A stretch of 32,005 nucleotides of DNA from Candidatus Hydrothermarchaeota archaeon (GTDB lineage: Archaea > Hydrothermarchaeota > Hydrothermarchaeia > Hydrothermarchaeales > BMS3B). Below are positions 9,347 to 23,238 of the stretch, piece after piece. Made by a program: the position numbers and the translations under genes. The stretch lies in contig WANW01000034.1 in assembly GCA_015521615.1 (NCBI GenBank), forward strand, positions 1-32,005, in the 5' to 3' direction. The notes under the pieces are model-generated. The model did not search any database. It saw nothing but the letters and a program-made list of their open reading frames with translations, and had not been told where the DNA came from. Numbering within the stretch: position 1 is the stretch's first letter; the number at the start of each line of letters is the position of its first letter.

Positions 9347-9639
9347 CTCTCCACCTCTATACGGGTGTTGAAGCCTGCGAAGTGCGGCCTTCCAAAGCCC
9401 GTACACGAGGCATGGTAGCAGAGCTGCGCCGGCATGTCGCGGAAACAGCCCGAGAAGTCAACTATGCTCGGGTTGCGCGTGGAGTAGCAGTCCGTGGCTA
9501 TAGCTAGGTCGCTCAGCTCAAGTGCCCTTGCGATGGCCCGCTTTTCCTCCAGCGGGGTTTTATCCGAATGCATGGCGAGCAGAGCAATGCCCATGAGCTG
9601 AAGTGCGAGCAGCAGCATCATCTGCGTTGAGCGTCTCAT
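9343..9639 (-). CDS. Small membrane-anchored four-Cys protein between NosL and the permease
   Basis: From ATG at 9639 (4-base overlap with the nosL-like stop) it has 98 residues. It begins MRRSTQMMLLLALQLMGIAL, a single N-terminal anchor or signal. A short helix follows, then a Cys-rich outer segment with C51, C65, C74 and C79 in the contexts TDCYSTR, SGCFRD and LCYHASCTG. The spacing could make a metal site or two disulfides. I recognise no family. Four-base overlaps on both sides (9636-9639 and 9343-9346) show it is an integral part of the operon. The longer ORF reaching 9813 overlaps the nosL frame and is unlikely. Confidence 0.6.
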   Translation of the reverse strand: MRRSTQMMLLLALQLMGIALLAMHSDKTPLEEKRAIARALELSDLAIATDCYSTRNPSIVDFSGCFRDMPAQLCYHASCTGFGRPHFAGFNTRIEVER

Positions 9640-10100
9640 TTCAGCGTAACACCCCGCTCTACCACCTCTGAGAAGGTGAGCACATCGCCTGAGGGATAGT
9701 CCCTGCGGAAGCTCTCCGCATCCTCCCTGCTCGCGAACACCACAATTCCAAAGCCCATGGGAGTGGGTATGGCAGCGTTGGTTACATAGTAGGCGCGCTC
9801 TGCATCCACCCATCGTTGGGTGTAGTAGTCTCTGCAGTATATCTTTGCCATGCTTCCGCGGTGCTTGGAGTAGTAGATGAACATGTCCCCTGGATCGTCG
9901 AAGAACTTCACCTCCCTGCTGTCAAGTATCGCCTCGCACGCCCAGTTCTCGTAGTCCTTTACAAACATGCCGCACTCCGGACAGCGTGCACCCTCCGGCA
10001 CGGGCACTGGTTTGAGGTCTGGGGAAACCACCTTCCCGCCCTTCTGCGCGCAGCCTGAGAGCAGCAGCACCGCGAGCAGAAGCAATCCAATGCCTCGCAT
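9636..10100 (-). CDS. NosL-like copper-binding lipoprotein, first gene of the ABC operon
   Basis: From ATG at 10100 with a GGGAGGGAG site upstream, the protein has 154 residues. It has a lipoprotein signal (MRGIGLLLLAVLLLSGC, lipid Cys17), then CPECGM (C40, C43, M45) and a NosL core with FFDDPGDMFIYY and AYYV..AAIPTPMG. It is a paralogue of 1181-1741 but lacks the Met-rich tail. In the NosL family the Cys/Met motif region carries Cu(I) to a periplasmic or surface copper enzyme. It heads a five-gene operon in which neighbouring genes overlap by four bases or abut directly. TATA at about 10120-10131 and the phased repeat at 10167-10216 lie upstream. Confidence 0.82.
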   Translation of the reverse strand: MRGIGLLLLAVLLLSGCAQKGGKVVSPDLKPVPVPEGARCPECGMFVKDYENWACEAILDSREVKFFDDPGDMFIYYSKHRGSMAKIYCRDYYTQRWVDAERAYYVTNAAIPTPMGFGIVVFASREDAESFRRDYPSGDVLTFSEVVERGVTLK

Positions 10101-10119
10101 AGGGTAATCTCCCTCCCTG

Positions 10120-10131
10120 TAAATATAAAAA
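10120..10131 (-). promoter_or_regulatory. TATA box of the NosL/ABC operon
   Basis: TTTTTATATTTA on the minus strand, about 25 bases upstream of the ATG at 10100, predicts a very short leader. The phased repeat begins 36 bases further upstream. Confidence 0.5.
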
Positions 10132-10166
10132 CTTAATCCCTGAAAATGTAGTAAAATAGAAGCTAT

Positions 10167-10216
10167 TATATGCGTTCTCACGAAAATCTACAAAATAACG
10201 CGTCAGAACGTGAAAA
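10167..10216. promoter_or_regulatory. 10-bp-phased repeat between divergent ABC operons
   Basis: Ten-base units TATATGCGTT, CTCACGAAAA, TCTACAAAAT, AACGCGTCAG and AACGTGAAAA keep a purine-pyrimidine-G core in register in four of five units. The last two are the closest match to the arrays at 1869-1898 and 2888-2937. The site lies between the minus TATA (10120-10131) and the plus TATA (10237-10250), so it could control both ABC operons. Confidence 0.45.
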
Positions 10217-12157: not shown

Positions 12158-12282
12158 AAAGAAAATCTCCTATAATATAAAAAAGATTTCAGTACACCTG
12201 AGATTATTTATAGCATTCCTCTTATTATAATTTCGAAAACTCTTAAAGTGGTTATCGGAATAATAAAAATAGGTGCTGTGAT

Positions 12283-13209
12283 GTGAAACTCAGGTTAGAT
12301 TATCTTCAGACTTTTAAAGAGGTTGTCGAAGAAGGAAGTTTTCTCGGCGCCTCAAAGGCGCTGGGCATGAGTGTAAGCACAATAAGTTTGCATATTGATG
12401 CGGTTGAGAAGTTTTTTGAGGCGAGGCTGCTTGAACGCAATGTCAGCGGTGTGAAGCTCACCAGGGAGGGAGAAATCGCTTATAACAGCATAAGGGAGCT
12501 TTTTACTCTTCTCGAGAAGACAAAGAAGGGAATTAAGAATCTGAGCACAAAGATTATAAATATAGGCATAGGCTGCGTGGGCGTGCCAATAATAGCCGAG
12601 ATTCAGATGGGCTATAAGGATGTTCGCCCCGATGTGGACGTGAGGGTGAAGCTTACCGGGGAGTACACCTGTCTGGACCTTCTGGAGCACGGCGAGGTAA
12701 GTGTTGTGCTCGCAGGCTATCCAACGCCTCTGAAGCTTGATGATGGTTACCGCGTAGAGGAGATAGGCTATGATCGCTTTGTTTTAATAGTGCCTCCCAA
12801 CCATGAGCTGGCGAAGAAGCGCGAGGTTACAGTGGAGGACGTGCTCTCATATCCCATGGTTACCCTCAACAAGGGTTATAGCAGCACGGCAATTGAGGAT
12901 ACTCTGAGAGAGCTTAGAAATATAGAGAAGGAGCAGAAGATTGAGTGCAGTGTTAATGATATATTCTCCCAGATTTATGGCGTTTCCTCAGGGCTGGGCA
13001 CGGCGATTGCCAGCTATGTGCTCTCGAAGCGGTATGAGGAGGGCGGACTTGTGGTGATAAAGGAGATAAAGGATTTCACCGACGAGAGGCCCATATATGC
13101 GATAACCACCGAAAAGGCACTTGAAAATCCAGTTATTGCTGACTTCTACACGTATCTTGTTGAAAGAGGAACTCAGCTTCTTGAGAAATACAGGTTGAGA
13201 GGCGATTAG
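12283..13209 (+). CDS. LysR-family transcriptional regulator heading a sulfur operon
   Basis: The GTG start at 12283 gives 308 residues (MKLRLDYLQTFKEVVEEGSF). The N-terminal winged helix (about 3-62) has the LysR pattern LGMSVSTISLHIDAVEKFF and LERN..GVKLTREG. A two-lobed substrate-binding domain follows (from about residue 90, starting INIGIGCVGVP). LysR proteins usually respond to a small ligand and control adjacent genes. Here the four following genes are packed with gaps of zero or one base, so the ligand may be a sulfur compound or redox signal. LysR proteins are uncommon but present in archaea, and this one may have come from bacteria. Confidence 0.9.
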   Translation: MKLRLDYLQTFKEVVEEGSFLGASKALGMSVSTISLHIDAVEKFFEARLLERNVSGVKLTREGEIAYNSIRELFTLLEKTKKGIKNLSTKIINIGIGCVGVPIIAEIQMGYKDVRPDVDVRVKLTGEYTCLDLLEHGEVSVVLAGYPTPLKLDDGYRVEEIGYDRFVLIVPPNHELAKKREVTVEDVLSYPMVTLNKGYSSTAIEDTLRELRNIEKEQKIECSVNDIFSQIYGVSSGLGTAIASYVLSKRYEEGGLVVIKEIKDFTDERPIYAITTEKALENPVIADFYTYLVERGTQLLEKYRLRGD

Positions 13210-13737
13210 ATGAAGGAGAATGCAAAAAAGTACATCCCCTACATCTGGCTGGACGATGAGACAGGTCACCCGCTGATGATGAATGAGAGGTGCACAATAA
13301 TCTTCAGCGAGACCCTGAGTACGCTCAGACTAAGCCTGTATAAAATAATCGGCGAGGGTTCAGAGATGCTTCTCCGCCTGATAGGCAGGGATATGGGAAA
13401 GAAGTATGCACAGCTTGTTCTGAAGCAGTACCCGGAGCTTAATGAGGTGAGCAAACACACACAGATTTATGAGCTGTGCTCAATAATACTCAGAAATACA
13501 GGTTTCGGAAAGATAAAAATTCTTGAACTTGACGTGGAAAAACCAGAGATGCGGGCAATAATCGAGGATGCGCCTTCTGGACTGGGAATCAAGTCTCTAC
13601 CACCCATATACAACCTGGAGGCAGGGATGCTGTGCGGCATTCTTGAGCAGATCTTCAAGAGGGAGATGGTGGTCTCTGGTTACAGATTCAACGAAAACGA
13701 GGATAATTATGAGTTAACAATAACGAAGGTGGAGTGA
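13210..13737 (+). CDS. V4R-like small-molecule-binding protein
   Basis: The 175-residue protein starts at the ATG directly after the LysR stop. The C-terminal half resembles the V4R (4-vinyl reductase) fold, with IIEDAPSGLG, then NLEAGMLCGILEQIFKREM and a final GYRF...DNYELTIT strand. V4R domains bind small molecules and are found in regulators and bacteriochlorophyll enzymes. Cys residues occur in ERCTIIF, YELCSII and MLCGIL. No DNA-binding domain is seen, so it may be a sensor or accessory subunit for the adjacent regulator or for the sulfur carrier that follows. Family assignment is by pattern only. Confidence 0.55.
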   Translation: MKENAKKYIPYIWLDDETGHPLMMNERCTIIFSETLSTLRLSLYKIIGEGSEMLLRLIGRDMGKKYAQLVLKQYPELNEVSKHTQIYELCSIILRNTGFGKIKILELDVEKPEMRAIIEDAPSGLGIKSLPPIYNLEAGMLCGILEQIFKREMVVSGYRFNENEDNYELTITKVE

Positions 13738-13959
13738 ATGCGGGTGCTGGACGTTAGAGGAGAAATATGCCCCGTCCCCCTCGTGCGCTGTGTAAATGAG
13801 ATAAAGAAGATGAAGCCCGGAGAGGTACTGAAGGTTATCTCGGACCACCCGCCCGCGAAGAAGAGCATACCCATGGAGATGGAGGCGCAGGGACACGAGT
13901 ATACCATCGAAGAAGACGGTGCCGAGTTTACAATAACAATAGTTGTCAAGGGTAAGTAG
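13738..13959 (+). CDS. tusA: TusA-family sulfur carrier
   Basis: The 73-residue protein has the TusA signature ICPVPLVR, with the persulfide Cys at position 11, followed by a GEVLKVISDHPPAKKSIPM stretch typical of the fold. TusA carries sulfane sulfur between rhodanese-type donors and acceptors in tRNA thiolation, cofactor synthesis or sulfur oxidation. It abuts the V4R-like gene and precedes YeeE-type transporter genes by one base. TusA/YeeE neighbours are a recurrent pairing in sulfur-compound uptake. A second TusA is encoded at 23239-23472. Confidence 0.9.
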   Translation: MRVLDVRGEICPVPLVRCVNEIKKMKPGEVLKVISDHPPAKKSIPMEMEAQGHEYTIEEDGAEFTITIVVKGK

Positions 13960-13960
13960 T

Positions 13961-14431
13961 ATGCGCTACCTCTCCCCTACGAGAGCAGCTTTACTTCTTG
14001 CTTTGTTGAACTTATTACTGTACATTACCCTCGACCGTCCCTGGAGTATAACCTCAGGCGAGAGCCATTTTGTCGCATACGTGGAGAACCTCTTTTTTCC
14101 GGAGCATGTTGCAAAGAGTGCATATTTCCAGCGCTATGTGCCTGAGCTGAACTGGCGTGTGTGGCTTAATTTCGGTATAATTTTTGGCGCTTTTATTGGA
14201 GCATATCTGGGCAATGATTTTAAGGTGCGCATACCCAGAGTAAAGGCTCGTTTCCTTCAGGTTTTCATTGGAGGGTTTCTGATGGGGTATGGTGCCCGTC
14301 TTGCAATAGGGTGCAATATAGGGCACATAATGTCAGGCGTACCTCAACTGGCGGTTTCAAGCATAATTGCCTTCATATCAATAGCTGCCGGTGCCTATGT
14401 CGGCGGCAAGATTCTAATGCGGGTGATATGA
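13961..14431 (+). CDS. YeeE/YedE (TsuA-like) transporter, N-terminal half
   Basis: The ATG at 13961 gives 156 residues (MRYLSPTRAALLLALLNLLL); the ORF can be extended to 13943 but that would overlap tusA. Four or so hydrophobic helices are visible, with GYGARLAIGCNIGHIMSG carrying C118. This GxCxxGH loop is the first of the Cys-containing loops that pass thiosulfate through YeeE/TsuA. In many bacteria one longer polypeptide holds both halves. Here the second half is the next ORF, so the transporter is split and should assemble as a heterodimer. Confidence 0.8.
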   Translation: MRYLSPTRAALLLALLNLLLYITLDRPWSITSGESHFVAYVENLFFPEHVAKSAYFQRYVPELNWRVWLNFGIIFGAFIGAYLGNDFKVRIPRVKARFLQVFIGGFLMGYGARLAIGCNIGHIMSGVPQLAVSSIIAFISIAAGAYVGGKILMRVI

Positions 14432-14962
14432 GTGGAGGCTTTGATTGGCTTTGCATTTGGTGTTGCCATAGGTTTTGTGCTTGAGCGGGGACAGTTCTGC
14501 ATGGCCTCCGCATTTAGAGATTTCTTCCTCTTCCGTCATACGCATATTCTGCGTGCTGTAATGCTATACCTGGCCCTGCTTACTCCGGCATTCTTTCTGT
14601 TTCACCGGGCAGGACTGATTGAAACCTACCCGTACGTAAAGGAGGCAGGACTCTTTACAGTACTGGGTGGTATGATATTCGGAATAGGCATGGTGCTTGC
14701 AGGTGGTTGTGCCTCCGGTACGCTGTATAAGATAGGTGAGGGTTATGTTACATCACTTGTGGCGCTTATTGGCATGCTTCTGGGTATAGCTGCCTTTGGT
14801 GAGAGTTACACCTGGATCAGGGAAGTTTTGATAAATCCGACAAATATAGGCAGATTTACAGTTGCACAGGCTGCAGGTATCTCTCAGAACGTGGCCGTGC
14901 TTCTCGGCACGGTGGTTTTTGCCGGTATATATTTTCTCATGAAAAGAAGCTTTGTGAAGTGA
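14432..14962 (+). CDS. YeeE/YedE (TsuA-like) transporter, C-terminal half
   Basis: A GTG at 14432, directly after the previous stop, opens 176 residues. The motifs ERGQFCMASAFRD (C23) and LAGGCASGTLYKIGEG (C93) are the second and third Cys loops of the YeeE/TsuA family. Together with C118 of the preceding half they supply the three Cys reported as important in TsuA thiosulfate uptake. About five helices are predicted. Gene packing implies equal expression of the two halves. The substrate could be thiosulfate or a related sulfur species. Confidence 0.82.
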   Translation: MEALIGFAFGVAIGFVLERGQFCMASAFRDFFLFRHTHILRAVMLYLALLTPAFFLFHRAGLIETYPYVKEAGLFTVLGGMIFGIGMVLAGGCASGTLYKIGEGYVTSLVALIGMLLGIAAFGESYTWIREVLINPTNIGRFTVAQAAGISQNVAVLLGTVVFAGIYFLMKRSFVK

Positions 14963-15001: not shown

Positions 15002-15020
15002 GTGAATGCCACATATGATT

Positions 15021-15794
15021 ATGAAATATTTAATTACATTTTTGATTTTAATAATGGGGTTTTTTGCAGGCTGTACGGGGGAACCCAGGCAAGAGTTGCC
15101 TTTCAACTACGATGATAGGAACTTCACACTGGCTTTGAGGAGTGGCACTCCAGTGGTTCTGGAAATAGGAGCGAGCTGGTGCAAGCAGTGCATTGAGCAG
15201 CAACCTATAATGGAGGAGCTTGAGAGGGAGTACAGGGAGGTTAAGTTCTTTCTGGCAAACTTCGACACAGAGAAGGAGCTTGTAAAAAAGTATGGCGTTA
15301 GAGGTATACCTTATTTTGTTTTCTTTGATGCTGGCGGGGAGAAAGCTTTTGAAATAACCGGTTTTCAGGAGAAAAGAGTTATGGAGATGTTTATAAAGAG
15401 GATCCTCTACGGCAGTTTTGCTCAGAATGGCACATACACCACACATAATACTCTAAAGGAGCCGACAATCGAGCTGGAAGATGGTAAGGTGATAATAGAA
15501 ACTCAGGTTACTGAAAACATAACTGTCTGGGGAGAAAGCGTAGAAATTCTCCTGAACAATATGACTCTTGATGTATTGAATGTCACCCCACCAATAAACA
15601 GCATCCGTGACTTTGAGCTGATGAATGTAACAGAGGGCACTATAATAAGAGCGGAAGCTAATATTCCCCTTAATATAACAGCCTATGATACTCTGAATAT
15701 TGAGCTCAAGCTGGGAATTTTTGATATTGACTGCTGCGGAAACTACCGTGAAGTACTTGTGGGTGGAAGTTTCACAGAGTTTGACAAAACTTAA
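15021..15794 (+). CDS. Thioredoxin-fold lipoprotein with a WCKQC motif
   Basis: From ATG at 15021 the protein has 257 residues. A lipoprotein signal (MKYLITFLILIMGFFAGC, lipid Cys18) precedes a thioredoxin domain with WCKQC (Cys54 and Cys57) and the cis-Pro loop RGIPYFVFF. The C-terminal about 120 residues are beta-rich with several potential N-glycosylation sites (NIT, NMT, NVT) and a late CC pair. Surface thioredoxins of this type reduce disulfides or maintain copper-site or haem-site Cys. The gene follows the sulfur-transport operon but has its own promoter. No DsbD-like electron donor is visible in the window. Confidence 0.8.
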   Translation: MKYLITFLILIMGFFAGCTGEPRQELPFNYDDRNFTLALRSGTPVVLEIGASWCKQCIEQQPIMEELEREYREVKFFLANFDTEKELVKKYGVRGIPYFVFFDAGGEKAFEITGFQEKRVMEMFIKRILYGSFAQNGTYTTHNTLKEPTIELEDGKVIIETQVTENITVWGESVEILLNNMTLDVLNVTPPINSIRDFELMNVTEGTIIRAEANIPLNITAYDTLNIELKLGIFDIDCCGNYREVLVGGSFTEFDKT

Positions 15795-15914
15795 CCTTCT
15801 TTTTCCTGCCCATTTTCGGATTTTGCGTAAGACCATTATTTCAGTTTTCTATATATATGAACAGGCTTTCGAAAAATTTAAATACATGTTCTTATACCTA
15901 ATAAACTGACACAA

Positions 15915-15958
15915 ATAACGTAAAAACGCGAACGCATAAAGGGTATTAAAAAATAATT
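15915..15958 (+). promoter_or_regulatory. Promoter and AACGYR repeats upstream of the secreted rhodanese gene
   Basis: AACGTA (15917), AACGCG (15925) and AACGCA (15931) lie directly upstream of a TATA-like TATTAAAAAATAATTT (about 15943-15958). The ACG and GCG cores at 15918-15920 and 15928-15930 are 10 bases apart, resembling the phased motif of the nosL and cytochrome genes. Other AT-rich boxes occur at about 15847-15858 and 15873-15888. Confidence 0.4.
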
Positions 15959-15979
15959 TAACAAAAAGAGGAGGTGAAA

Positions 15980-16027
15980 GTGTTGGAAACCCGCCAACCC
16001 GCTAAAATAAGGAGGTGGAGGGCATGA
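15980..16027 (+). CDS. Possible 15-codon leader ORF overlapping the rhodanese start
   Basis: A strong GAGGAGGTG (15968-15976) precedes GTG at 15980 or TTG at 15983. The frame encodes about 15 residues (LETRQPAKIRRWRA) and ends with TGA at 16025-16027, overlapping the rhodanese ATG as ATGA. The rhodanese has its own GGAGGTGG site at 16011-16018, so the first site otherwise has no purpose. A GTTGG/CCAAC stem sits at the ORF start. It could be a translated leader or simply a duplicated binding site. Confidence 0.3.
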   Translation: MLETRQPAKIRRWRA

Positions 16028-17187
16028 AGAAAGGTTTAATGGCGCTGCTTGTGGGCGTGCTGTTTTTGGCCAGTGCCTCGCTGGTGAGTGCAGCGGAGTA
16101 CCCAGGTCCCCTTGTTGATATGGACTGGGTACAGGCGCATCTGGACACCATTAAAGACCCCACTCAGACCGAGATTCGCCTCGTTGAGGTAAGCAAAAAA
16201 GGATATGACAAGGAACATATTCCTGGCGCAGTCTGGGTAAAGTGGGGAAGCGAAGTATTTGAGCCGGGCACAGACCATATGATTCTGGATTACGGCTCCA
16301 TAAGTGCAGTGATGAAGAAGCTGGGTGTTACACCAGACACTCACATAGTAATATATAGTGACAGCCTTACACAGGCGGCTCGATTCTATTGGACTCTTAA
16401 GTACTGGAACGTGGAGAAAATCAGCCTGATGGGAGCCACAAAGAAAGCTTGGAAGGCAGAAGGCAGGCCACTAACCACAGAAGTCCCCGCAGTACAGCCT
16501 CGTGATTACGAGATCAAGTTCCCACCGAACACTAAGATATACGCTCTGCTTCACCCAGATGTCATGAATGGGCTTGCTACCGGAAAAGTGCTCTTCGTGG
16601 ACAACCGCCCAGCAAAATATGTCGAAGGTAAGAAGTACTCCCTCAGCAAGTGGGTCAGGGCAGGAACCATTCCTGGTGCCATAGGCTGGGCTGCACCGGA
16701 AGAGGTAACCAAGGATGGCAAGCTTCTGCCGGTTGAAGAGCTGAAGAAACAGGCAGAGAGCAAGGGTATAACTCCTGACAAGAACATCATAGTCTTCTGC
16801 AATACCGGTGTGAGGTCTTCGCTGGGATGGTTCATCCTGCATGAGCTCCTCGGCTATCCGAATGTCAAGAACTATGACGGCTCTATGAGAGAGTACGCCA
16901 ACAGCTTCTATCTGCCAATGGACCCAGATTCCTTCCTGATATACAAGGACTTCCCGAAGGCGCCAATACTCGAGGTGAAGGAGACCGCCGAGTCCGCCAA
17001 GAGCGCAGCTGACGAGAATGCCAAGAAGATCGCTGAGCTGGAGAAACAGCTTGAGGAGACAAGAAAGATCGCTGAGGCTGCTAAGGCAGAGGGCAAGGGT
17101 CTGTGCGGACCCACAAGCGTTGCACTGCTCGCTGCGCTTCCGCTCGCAGGGTATGCGCTGCGCAGGAGGTATCTGAAGAAGAACTAA
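16024..17187 (+). CDS. Secreted two-domain rhodanese with a CGP-CTERM-like anchor
   Basis: The ATG at 16024, after GGAGGTGG, gives 387 residues. A signal peptide (MKKGLMALLVGVLFLASASL) is followed by two rhodanese domains. The first has the inactive YSDSLTQAAR loop and the second the active FCNTGVRSS loop with Cys259. This is the usual thiosulfate or 3-mercaptopyruvate sulfurtransferase layout. A Glu/Lys/Ala-rich coiled-coil linker (about 320-358) leads to CGPTSVALLAALPLAG and a basic tail, resembling the CGP-CTERM sorting signal known from Thermococci, with Cys361 as likely anchor. The enzyme should work at the outer cell surface on thiosulfate or polysulfide, feeding the transport and carrier proteins encoded upstream. 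Confidence 0.88.
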   Translation: MKKGLMALLVGVLFLASASLVSAAEYPGPLVDMDWVQAHLDTIKDPTQTEIRLVEVSKKGYDKEHIPGAVWVKWGSEVFEPGTDHMILDYGSISAVMKKLGVTPDTHIVIYSDSLTQAARFYWTLKYWNVEKISLMGATKKAWKAEGRPLTTEVPAVQPRDYEIKFPPNTKIYALLHPDVMNGLATGKVLFVDNRPAKYVEGKKYSLSKWVRAGTIPGAIGWAAPEEVTKDGKLLPVEELKKQAESKGITPDKNIIVFCNTGVRSSLGWFILHELLGYPNVKNYDGSMREYANSFYLPMDPDSFLIYKDFPKAPILEVKETAESAKSAADENAKKIAELEKQLEETRKIAEAAKAEGKGLCGPTSVALLAALPLAGYALRRRYLKKN

Positions 17188-17382: not shown

Positions 17383-18783
17383 TTGAGCGGGAAATTTAGT
17401 GTGGCCGTGCTGGGTGCTGGCCTGGCTGGTTTATCGGCAGCATACACATTGACAAAGGCGAAAAAGCGTGTTGTAGTTATTGAGAAGGCCTCACAGGTAG
17501 GCGGGCTTTCGCGTACAGTTGTGCACAATGGTTTTCGTTTCGATCTTGGAGGGCATCGCTTTTTCACAAAAAACCCGGAAATTGAGGAAATAGTAAAAAA
17601 TTTGCTCAGCAATGAACTTGTTTTATCCAAGAGAAGCAGCAAGATATTTATGCGTGGAAAGTACTTTGATTACCCCCTCAAACCTGTTAATGCCCTTTTG
17701 GGTCTCGGGATGAGAGAGAGTGCAAAGATAGTTATGGACTATTCGCGTGAGAGGTTGCGTTCAAAAAGGCGCATCGTATCTCTTGAGGACTGGGTTGTGG
17801 CAAACTTCGGGAGAGAGCTCTTCAATATATTCTTTAAGGAGTACAGCGAAAAGGTCTGGGGAATAAGCTGTGATAGGATAAGTGCTGAGTGGGTTGCTCA
17901 GCGCATCCGCGGCCTCTCTCTGAGCGTAGCAATTAAAGATGCGCTGCTCAGAATCAATCATCGCAGGCCTGCGACGCTTATAAGAGAATTCCTCTATCCG
18001 GAGAAAGGTATAGGGAGGCTGGCAGAGAGGCTAATGGAGGAAGTGGCTCCCAATCCAGTGCTTCTGGGCTGCAGGGTTAAGAGACTCACTCATGCCAATG
18101 GAAGGATTCTGAGTGTTACAGCGCAGAACTGCGATAGTGAGATTACAGTGGAAGCAGACAGCTACATCTCCAGTATCCCATTTACGAGTCTGGTTAAAAT
18201 GCTCTCACCCGAGCCACCTGAAGACGTGCTCCGTGCCGCCTCTCGCCTGAGGTTCAGGGATACGATAATTGTGGCTATTATGGTAAATAAGCCACGTGTC
18301 ACCTCCCTGAGCTGGATATATATTCCTGAGAAAAAGATACCCTTTGGCAGAATACACGAGCCCAACAACTGGAGCGAGGCGATGTCACCCAGAGGTAAGA
18401 CATCGCTTGTGGCCGAGTATTTCTGCTTCTCGGGCGAGAAGCTGTGGAATATGAGTGATGCCGAGCTTGCCCAGATAACTGCTGAGCATCTGGAGGAGCT
18501 GGGTTTTGTTAAAGAAAAAGAGGTTATTGATGCCTGTGTTGTGCGCGTACCCAATGCATACCCCCTGCTCGAGGTGGGCTATCGCAGGCATTATGAGGTT
18601 ATCCTAGATTACCTCTCCCGCTTTGAGAACCTTCAGCTGGTGGGGCGAACCGGAATGTTTCGCTACCACAACATGGACCATGCCATGGAAACAGGTATAA
18701 AAGCAGCAAGAAATATTCTAGGCGAGAGGCATGATCTGCTCACGGTTAACTGTACCGCCGAGTACATAGAGGAGGTTCGTTAG
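17383..18783 (+). CDS. FAD-dependent amine-oxidase-like enzyme (HemY/UDP-galactopyranose-mutase-like)
   Basis: A TTG at 17383, ten bases after GGAGGT, opens 466 residues (MSGKFSVAVLGAGLAGLSAA). The N-terminal Rossmann motif GAGLAG (11-16), VVVIEKASQVGGLSRT and FRFDLGGHRFFTK place it among flavoproteins that include protoporphyrinogen oxidase, phytoene desaturases and UDP-galactopyranose mutase. The C-terminal GRTGMFRYHNMDHAMETGIKA closes the FAD site. Substrate is not determinable. The following radical SAM gene starts with no gap, so the two probably modify the same lipid, sugar or tetrapyrrole. An internal GTG at 17401 is an alternative start but would cut the Rossmann strand. Confidence 0.8.
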   Translation: MSGKFSVAVLGAGLAGLSAAYTLTKAKKRVVVIEKASQVGGLSRTVVHNGFRFDLGGHRFFTKNPEIEEIVKNLLSNELVLSKRSSKIFMRGKYFDYPLKPVNALLGLGMRESAKIVMDYSRERLRSKRRIVSLEDWVVANFGRELFNIFFKEYSEKVWGISCDRISAEWVAQRIRGLSLSVAIKDALLRINHRRPATLIREFLYPEKGIGRLAERLMEEVAPNPVLLGCRVKRLTHANGRILSVTAQNCDSEITVEADSYISSIPFTSLVKMLSPEPPEDVLRAASRLRFRDTIIVAIMVNKPRVTSLSWIYIPEKKIPFGRIHEPNNWSEAMSPRGKTSLVAEYFCFSGEKLWNMSDAELAQITAEHLEELGFVKEKEVIDACVVRVPNAYPLLEVGYRRHYEVILDYLSRFENLQLVGRTGMFRYHNMDHAMETGIKAARNILGERHDLLTVNCTAEYIEEVR

Positions 18784-22746: not shown

Positions 22747-23229
22747 TTAAATAAAGAGGGTTACATCAGCATCGCTGGCTATGTCCAGGAAGCCCGCTGC
22801 ACCCAGGCAGGCGTCCACCACCGGCAGGAGGTCACTCTCGGGGCAGCCCATCACATCCATGGTCATCTGACAGGCGTAGAACTTGACACCCATCTCCTTG
22901 CACATGTTTATGAGTTCTTCGATGCTGGGCACATTTTGCTTCTTCATCATCCTCTTCATCATCATTGTTGCCATCGCCGTCATACCCGGGAGCATACCAA
23001 TTATATTTGGCACAGGCATTGGCATCGCAGGATTTGCGATTGGTGCCACCTTCAAACTCTTGAACTTTTTCTTGTTGATTATGTCCAGTCCATAGAAGGT
23101 GAAGAACAGGTGCGCCTCCCAGTCCATGCTCGCCGCCGTACTCGCAAGTATAAGGGGCGGGTAAGCCGCGTCAAGAGTACCCTTGCTGACAATTATGCAA
23201 AGTTTCTTTTTCTTCTTCTCCTCTGCCAT
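22747..23229 (-). CDS. DsrE2-type sulfur relay protein (DsrE/DsrF/DrsH-like)
   Basis: The ATG at 23229, five bases after AGGTGG, gives 160 residues. KLCIIVSKGTLDAAYPPLILA and the glycine/methionine-rich NIIGMLPGMTAMATMMMKRM, then FYACQMTMDVMGC and VDACLGAAGFL, match the DsrE2 group. DsrE2 proteins pass sulfane sulfur along TusA/rhodanese chains. The mid-protein Met-rich stretch is typical of the membrane-associating region in this group. It is nine bases downstream of tusA on the same strand, the usual TusA-DsrE2 pairing. A GTG at 23238 is a possible earlier start. Confidence 0.85.
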   Translation of the reverse strand: MAEEKKKKKLCIIVSKGTLDAAYPPLILASTAASMDWEAHLFFTFYGLDIINKKKFKSLKVAPIANPAMPMPVPNIIGMLPGMTAMATMMMKRMMKKQNVPSIEELINMCKEMGVKFYACQMTMDVMGCPESDLLPVVDACLGAAGFLDIASDADVTLFI

Positions 23230-23238
23230 TTTAACCAC

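Follow-up and report, generated by a model that had tools for sequence, protein, structure and literature searches.

The window analyzed here is a 32,005-nucleotide stretch of contig C34 (WANW01000034.1) from a Candidatus Hydrothermarchaeota genome of 1.8 Mb and 93.7% completeness, most closely related, among named organisms, to Candidatus Pyrohabitans (JdFR-16 and JdFR-17) and to other Hydrothermarchaeota records. Positions 12283-14962 of its forward strand hold five tightly packed genes encoding, in order, a LysR-type regulator, a V4R-like protein, a TusA-like sulfur carrier, and the C-terminal and N-terminal halves of a YeeE/TsuA transporter. The following features were assigned in and around these genes.

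12231-12248, forward strand: promoter-like element (BRE-like TTTCGAAAA plus TATA-like CTCTTAAAG) 5' of the LysR gene, invariant in 5/5 Pyrohabitans-group genomes.
12251-12264, forward strand: candidate operator, an imperfect dyad GTTATC-N2-AATAAT between the TATA-like box and the start codon, from the promoter alignment.
12283-13209, forward strand: LysR-type regulator, 308 aa (Pfam PF03466, 93.2 bits; PF00126, 57.2 bits), with family-specific Cys98 and Cys222.
13210-13737, forward strand: predicted protein of the V4R/XylR_N fold, 175 aa, lacking the V4R metal ligands (AF2 model, fold match, and metal-site count).
13738-13959, forward strand: TusA-like sulfur carrier, 73 aa, with a CPVP motif (Pfam PF01206, 75.6 bits).
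13961-14431, forward strand: YeeE/TsuA C-terminal half (PF04143 positions 176-310, 121.1 bits); Cys118 corresponds to TsuA Cys293.
14432-14962, forward strand: YeeE/TsuA N-terminal half (PF04143 positions 1-150, 111.0 bits); Cys23 and Cys93 correspond to TsuA Cys22 and Cys91.
15006-15794, forward strand: lipoprotein-type thioredoxin, WCKQC (Pfam Thioredoxin, 53.6 bits; lipobox read by eye).
16015-17187, forward strand: two-domain rhodanese, predicted to be exported and C-terminally anchored, with a CNTGVR active loop (Pfam Rhodanese, 77.4 bits; signal and anchor by eye).

As the first-pass annotation of this DNA had described, the five genes are separated by gaps of zero or one base (0, 0, 1, and 0), the YeeE C-half being taken to start at the ATG at 13961 where the open reading frame list gave a TTG at 13943. 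Gaps of zero bases do not prove that the operon is special, the same spacing being found at the neighboring ABC transporter pair (11479/11480) and at 18783/18784. Elsewhere in the window, about 8 kb from the operon, a gene at 22750-23238 on the reverse strand encodes a DsrE3-type protein (DrsE_2, 174.8 bits); members of the DsrE3 family are TusA partners in sulfur transfer. Two NosL-family lipoproteins are encoded at 1184-1741 and 9639-10181, both on the reverse strand, and the latter adjoins an FtsX/MacB-like permease and an ATPase.

We found the V4R-like protein in 8 of the 23 genomes of the phylum that were searched. All eight carriers, which span three genera, kept the order LysR, V4R-like protein, TusA, YeeE C-half, and YeeE N-half; in the most distant carrier, identity was 63% in the V4R-like protein and about 48% in the YeeE N-half. 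The five-gene operon of this Pyrohabitans-like Hydrothermarchaeota genome is confirmed as real, and the shared order in three genera supports the earlier proposal that a LysR regulator and a V4R-type protein are linked to a TusA/split-YeeE importer. The first-pass annotation had also named a gene order unique to this genome as grounds for giving up the proposal, and this we rejected given the order common to all carriers. Furthermore, the neighborhood search that it had suggested returned V4R, tusA, and yeeE together in 8/8 carriers and at none of the 22 other archaeal YeeE loci compared. Relatives of the V4R-like protein were absent from 72,556 plasmids, and none of 129 pattern stretches in viral contigs was a relative. 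The pattern scan of genome contigs, which detects close relatives only, yielded 51 stretches with 6 relatives, all in known Hydrothermarchaeota carriers. In the phyla of genomes G078 and G320, 4 of 29 and 3 of 227 genomes, respectively, had V4R matches, all of them weak, and the four loci fetched from there (L148-L151) contained none of the other four operon proteins.

YeeE itself is more widespread. A YeeE-family match was present in 15 of the 23 phylum genomes, seven of which have no V4R-like protein, and the carriers also possess other YeeE loci that lack the V4R-like gene; therefore, import can do without the V4R-like protein. At the 22 non-carrier archaeal loci, some of which are cut by contig ends, TusA lay within about 1.5 kb of YeeE in 13, while neither a V4R-like protein nor a match to the operon LysR profile was found at any. 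Such commonness of TusA and YeeE without a V4R-like gene would suit plain assimilatory thiosulfate uptake under a CysB-like LysR, with the V4R-like gene as a passenger of lineage history. We consider this explanation improbable, since loss or decay would be expected of a passenger, whereas the V4R-like gene stays between lysR and tusA in 8/8 carriers while the outer flanks vary: an ABC transporter pair lies upstream in Pyrohabitans and a flavin disulfide reductase (Pfam) in G005, with a similar protein, by eye, in G007. In one carrier (G015), a 15.7-kb stretch of contig C166 (L081/L019) holds three YeeE loci together with two TusA genes.

The transport part of the operon agrees well with the first-pass annotation, which had described a two-subunit YeeE/TsuA with all three pathway cysteines. 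Both YeeE genes matched Sulf_transp (PF04143; 121.1 and 111.0 bits) over the cut-off of 27, the upstream gene as the C-terminal half and the downstream gene as the N-terminal half. In alignments with TsuA of S. thermophila, Cys23 and Cys93 of the N-half, invariant in 7/7 sequences, fell on Cys22 and Cys91, and Cys118 of the C-half, invariant in 6/6, fell on Cys293, so that the entire cysteine set is kept. Cys91 and Cys293 are indispensable in S. thermophila (PMC11582611; this and the other papers cited by PMC number were available to us in part). The CPVP motif of TusA was invariant in all seven aligned proteins, and TusA scored 23.1 bits against the TsuB/YeeD family (NF041048), short of the cut-off of 147.5. 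TusA beside YeeE is the pairing of the TsuA-TsuB (YeeE-YeeD) thiosulfate uptake system (PMC11073785), a split YeeE/YedE in archaea has been reported (PMC5322559), and half-size YeeE proteins are known as PmpA and PmpB (PMC11582611). The TusA-YeeE adjacency is thus ordinary and the split YeeE already known; what is new is the addition of LysR and the V4R-like protein.

Downstream of the operon, a two-domain rhodanese, in which we recognized by eye a signal peptide as well as an anchor at the C terminus, was present in 8/8 carriers. Its CNTGVR loop was kept in seven, and the loop pattern C.[ST]G.R was not found in G015. A lipoprotein-type thioredoxin lies between the operon and the rhodanese in four of the eight carriers. 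In G005, the predicted exported rhodanese occurs in two tandem copies downstream of the operon (L079 3234-5793, reverse strand), and a 169-aa protein at L079 2687-3193, on the same strand, looks by eye like the C-terminal region of the lipoprotein thioredoxin, with neither a thioredoxin domain nor any Pfam match.

The first operon protein passed the cut-offs of both HTH_1 and LysR_substrate (57.2 and 93.2 bits). Compared with 30 LysR proteins, which were the best LysR_Se-profile loci and not a random LysR set, Cys98 was present in 7/7 operon LysR proteins versus 0/30 comparators, and Cys222 in 7/7 versus 0/29 comparators having a residue at that position. Cys130, which is cysteine in 21/30 comparators, was rejected as family specific. 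In the MAFFT alignment, Thr stands opposite Cys98 in 27/30 comparators; in an alignment with BenM, Cys98 lies three residues ahead of Ser99, which is presumably an effector contact. The two alignments disagree on the position, and we do not claim Cys98 as the exact effector-contact residue. An AF2 model of LysR (pLDDT 33.7) was discarded. On contig C166 of G015, the LysR gene carries a frameshift near residue 47, which reflects either an assembly error or decay.

The profile matches of the operon also bear on selenium. LysR and TusA find their best NCBIfam matches in LysR_Sec_metab and YedF, the YeeE pair matches YedE/FdhT in gene order, second to TsuA, and archaeal YedE is split (PMC5322559), all of which would fit a selenium uptake operon composed of LysR_Se/HrsM, a YedF-like TusA, and a split archaeal YedE. 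Nonetheless, every selenium-family match fell below its curated cut-off. The operon LysR scored about 113 bits (113.6 and 113.2) against LysR_Se/HrsM (NF040786), whose cut-off of 250 bits is passed in 25 of 394 archaeal genomes searched, and SelD was over its cut-off in none of the eight carriers, six of which are at least 90% complete. The SelD result together with the low LysR_Se score disfavors a selenium role, which we regard as very improbable indeed.

In the five genomes of the window's genus, 49/55 columns upstream of lysR were invariant. The same comparison gave 50/55 for the rhodanese leader and 31/55 and 17/55 for two other upstream regions; thus, promoter conservation is not unique to the operon. 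The rhodanese leader (15858-16014), which may possibly have a leader function, has its own BRE/TATA-like element upstream. Ahead of lysR, we read the element at 12231-12248 as BRE/TATA, and the dyad at 12251-12264 takes the exact form GTTATC-N2-GATAAC in JdFR-17. A 25-mer around this dyad occurred at one site per genome in 5/5 genomes with at most 3 mismatches, and its reversed control at none. We therefore treat the dyad as a candidate operator, a function proposed from its sequence. No second copy of the 25-mer was found in any of the five genomes, and therefore no wider regulon is visible. Inspection by eye did not reveal the promoter block of the operon in G005, G007, or G015.

The V4R identity given to the second protein by the first-pass annotation stood as remote homology, by fold and by reverse profile search, but the protein passed no Pfam cut-off. 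It had no match to V4R (PF02830) up to an E value of 10, and one of the eight family members matched that profile at E 0.099, without reaching the cut-off. Against XylR_N (PF06505), the window protein scored 19.1 bits (curated cut-off, 23), and all eight members matched at E values up to 1, the best being 0.0007. In the reverse direction, the profile of the family matched MJ1460, a V4R protein, in the PDB (E 0.0025) and, among 394 archaeal genomes, proteins in 16 other genomes. Of 28 distant profile matches, 22 had loci and were used for the neighborhood and metal-site counts, and 6 had none; a Pfam scan of 8 of the 22 fetched loci found V4R over the cut-off in seven and just below it in one. 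The AF2 model (mean pLDDT, 74.7; residues 1 to 28 low) has the V4R/XylR_N/Bet3 fold. Its best structural match was MopR (5kbi_A; Z 13.9 over 138 residues, rmsd 2.6), the top matches being the sensor domains of the phenol sensors MopR, PoxR, and DmpR, and other matches included MJ1460 (Z 9.6) and Bet3-family and Asgard TRAPPC3 chains (about 8 to 12). Because the match to MJ1460, the reverse matches to true archaeal V4R proteins, and the fold agree, we assign the second operon protein, as modeled, to the V4R/XylR_N fold as a remote member with a length near that of the sensor part alone.

The metal-ligand pattern [C/H/D], E-x-x-C, C, which we take as the residues that bind zinc in MopR and DmpR, was present in 22/22 more distant archaeal V4R proteins versus 0/8 operon proteins. 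By its residues, the operon protein is a derived V4R in which the metal-ligand set has been lost, and this loss may be the reason that the V4R profile misses the family. Cys28, within the low-confidence part of the AF2 model, and Cys90 are invariant in 8/8. The V4R-like protein might instead be a sulfur-handling partner, acting as chaperone or acceptor for persulfidated TusA or for the cytoplasmic YeeE face, with LysR alone sensing; its gene position between LysR and tusA, the two invariant cysteines, the loss of a metal site that its relatives keep, and the family-specific cysteines of LysR all speak for such a role. We nevertheless judge it unlikely, as the nearest folds among solved structures are domains by which regulators sense ligands, Cys28 falls where the model is poor, and two invariant cysteines are weak evidence at identities of at least 63%. 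The putative role offered by the first-pass annotation, that the V4R-like protein senses a sulfur metabolite or feeds LysR, is plausible. Its most specific form is more doubtful: a metal-free V4R could serve as a switch between importer and LysR that reads the TusA persulfide or imported sulfane sulfur and signals to LysR. We know of no two-protein sensor of this kind for either V4R or LysR proteins.

Altogether, we lean toward the view that the operon and the surface rhodanese constitute a module of Hydrothermarchaeota that imports sulfane sulfur or thiosulfate and regulates itself. The analysis shows which genes are present and how they are conserved, together with the cysteines, the fold, and the conserved promoter. 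We infer the substrate, the direction in which sulfur moves, and, for the V4R-like protein, its role as sensor and its partner, as follows. The surface rhodanese, joined by the lipoprotein thioredoxin in some species, would handle thiosulfate or sulfane sulfur outside the cell. The two YeeE halves would form one TsuA-like channel in which sulfur is passed along the three cysteines, and TusA would accept it as a persulfide on the CPxP cysteine for use by the cell. Part of the signal may reach LysR, either directly via Cys98/Cys222 or via the V4R-like protein, in whose pocket, the one used by the phenol sensors, either a small effector or TusA may bind; LysR would then control the shared promoter. 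In favor of the module are the 8/8 gene order, the YeeE and LysR cysteines, the rhodanese, the promoter, the sensor-like fold, and the precedents of TsuA-TsuB, soxSRT-tusA, and MsvR. On the other hand, the missing second 25-mer, the V4R-free YeeE loci, the frameshifted LysR and undetected rhodanese loop of G015, and the selenium-linked best match of LysR, though far under its cut-off, count against it, as does the available text of PMC6775978, which reports no thiosulfate reductase in the genomes studied there.

How regulators sense external sulfur has been described as poorly understood (PMC11582611). The operon unites an importer, a carrier, a regulator, and a candidate sensor, and it is kept in three genera belonging to an archaeal phylum of the deep sea. 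The question can thus be put to the test on a set of five small proteins, and a V4R protein may here play a part beyond aromatic or redox sensing. The Hydrothermarchaeota papers PMC6946796, PMC6759336, and PMC6775978 discuss Dsr, Apr, and Sat, and the term YeeE does not occur in the available portions of the first two. Our literature search found no paper joining V4R with YeeE or V4R with TusA.

Among known systems, MopR, PoxR, DmpR, and MJ1460 share the V4R/XylR_N fold of the operon protein, whereas the latter is free-standing, has no activator fusion, and has lost the metal ligands in 8/8 carriers. MsvR of methanogens, a redox-responsive V4R-domain regulator (PMC3729527), likewise links an archaeal V4R to a helix-turn-helix regulator; however, MsvR is one fused protein that uses conserved V4R cysteines, while the operon has separate genes and its V4R metal-site cysteines are gone. 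As in TsuA-TsuB (PMC11073785), a three-cysteine YeeE adjoins a TusA-family protein, but here the subunits are half-size, follow the C-half, N-half order, and come with their own LysR and V4R-like protein. PmpA/PmpB and the split archaeal YedE (PMC11582611, PMC5322559) have comparable half-size C-half and N-half subunits, although the PmpB N-half keeps one cysteine where the operon N-half has two (PMC11582611). The soxSRT-tusA locus of alphaproteobacteria, in which SoxT1B signals to SoxR, similarly unites a YeeE-family membrane protein, TusA, an extracytoplasmic thioredoxin (4/8 carriers here), and a transcription factor (PMC11582611). No sox genes were found among the operon neighbors scanned. 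The regulator there is an ArsR-type SoxR, in contrast to LysR plus a V4R-like protein, and the archaeal operon further differs by its YeeE split in two genes, its rhodanese, and its archaeal host. The operon most likely works like soxSRT-tusA with a different regulator, without being a member of that system.
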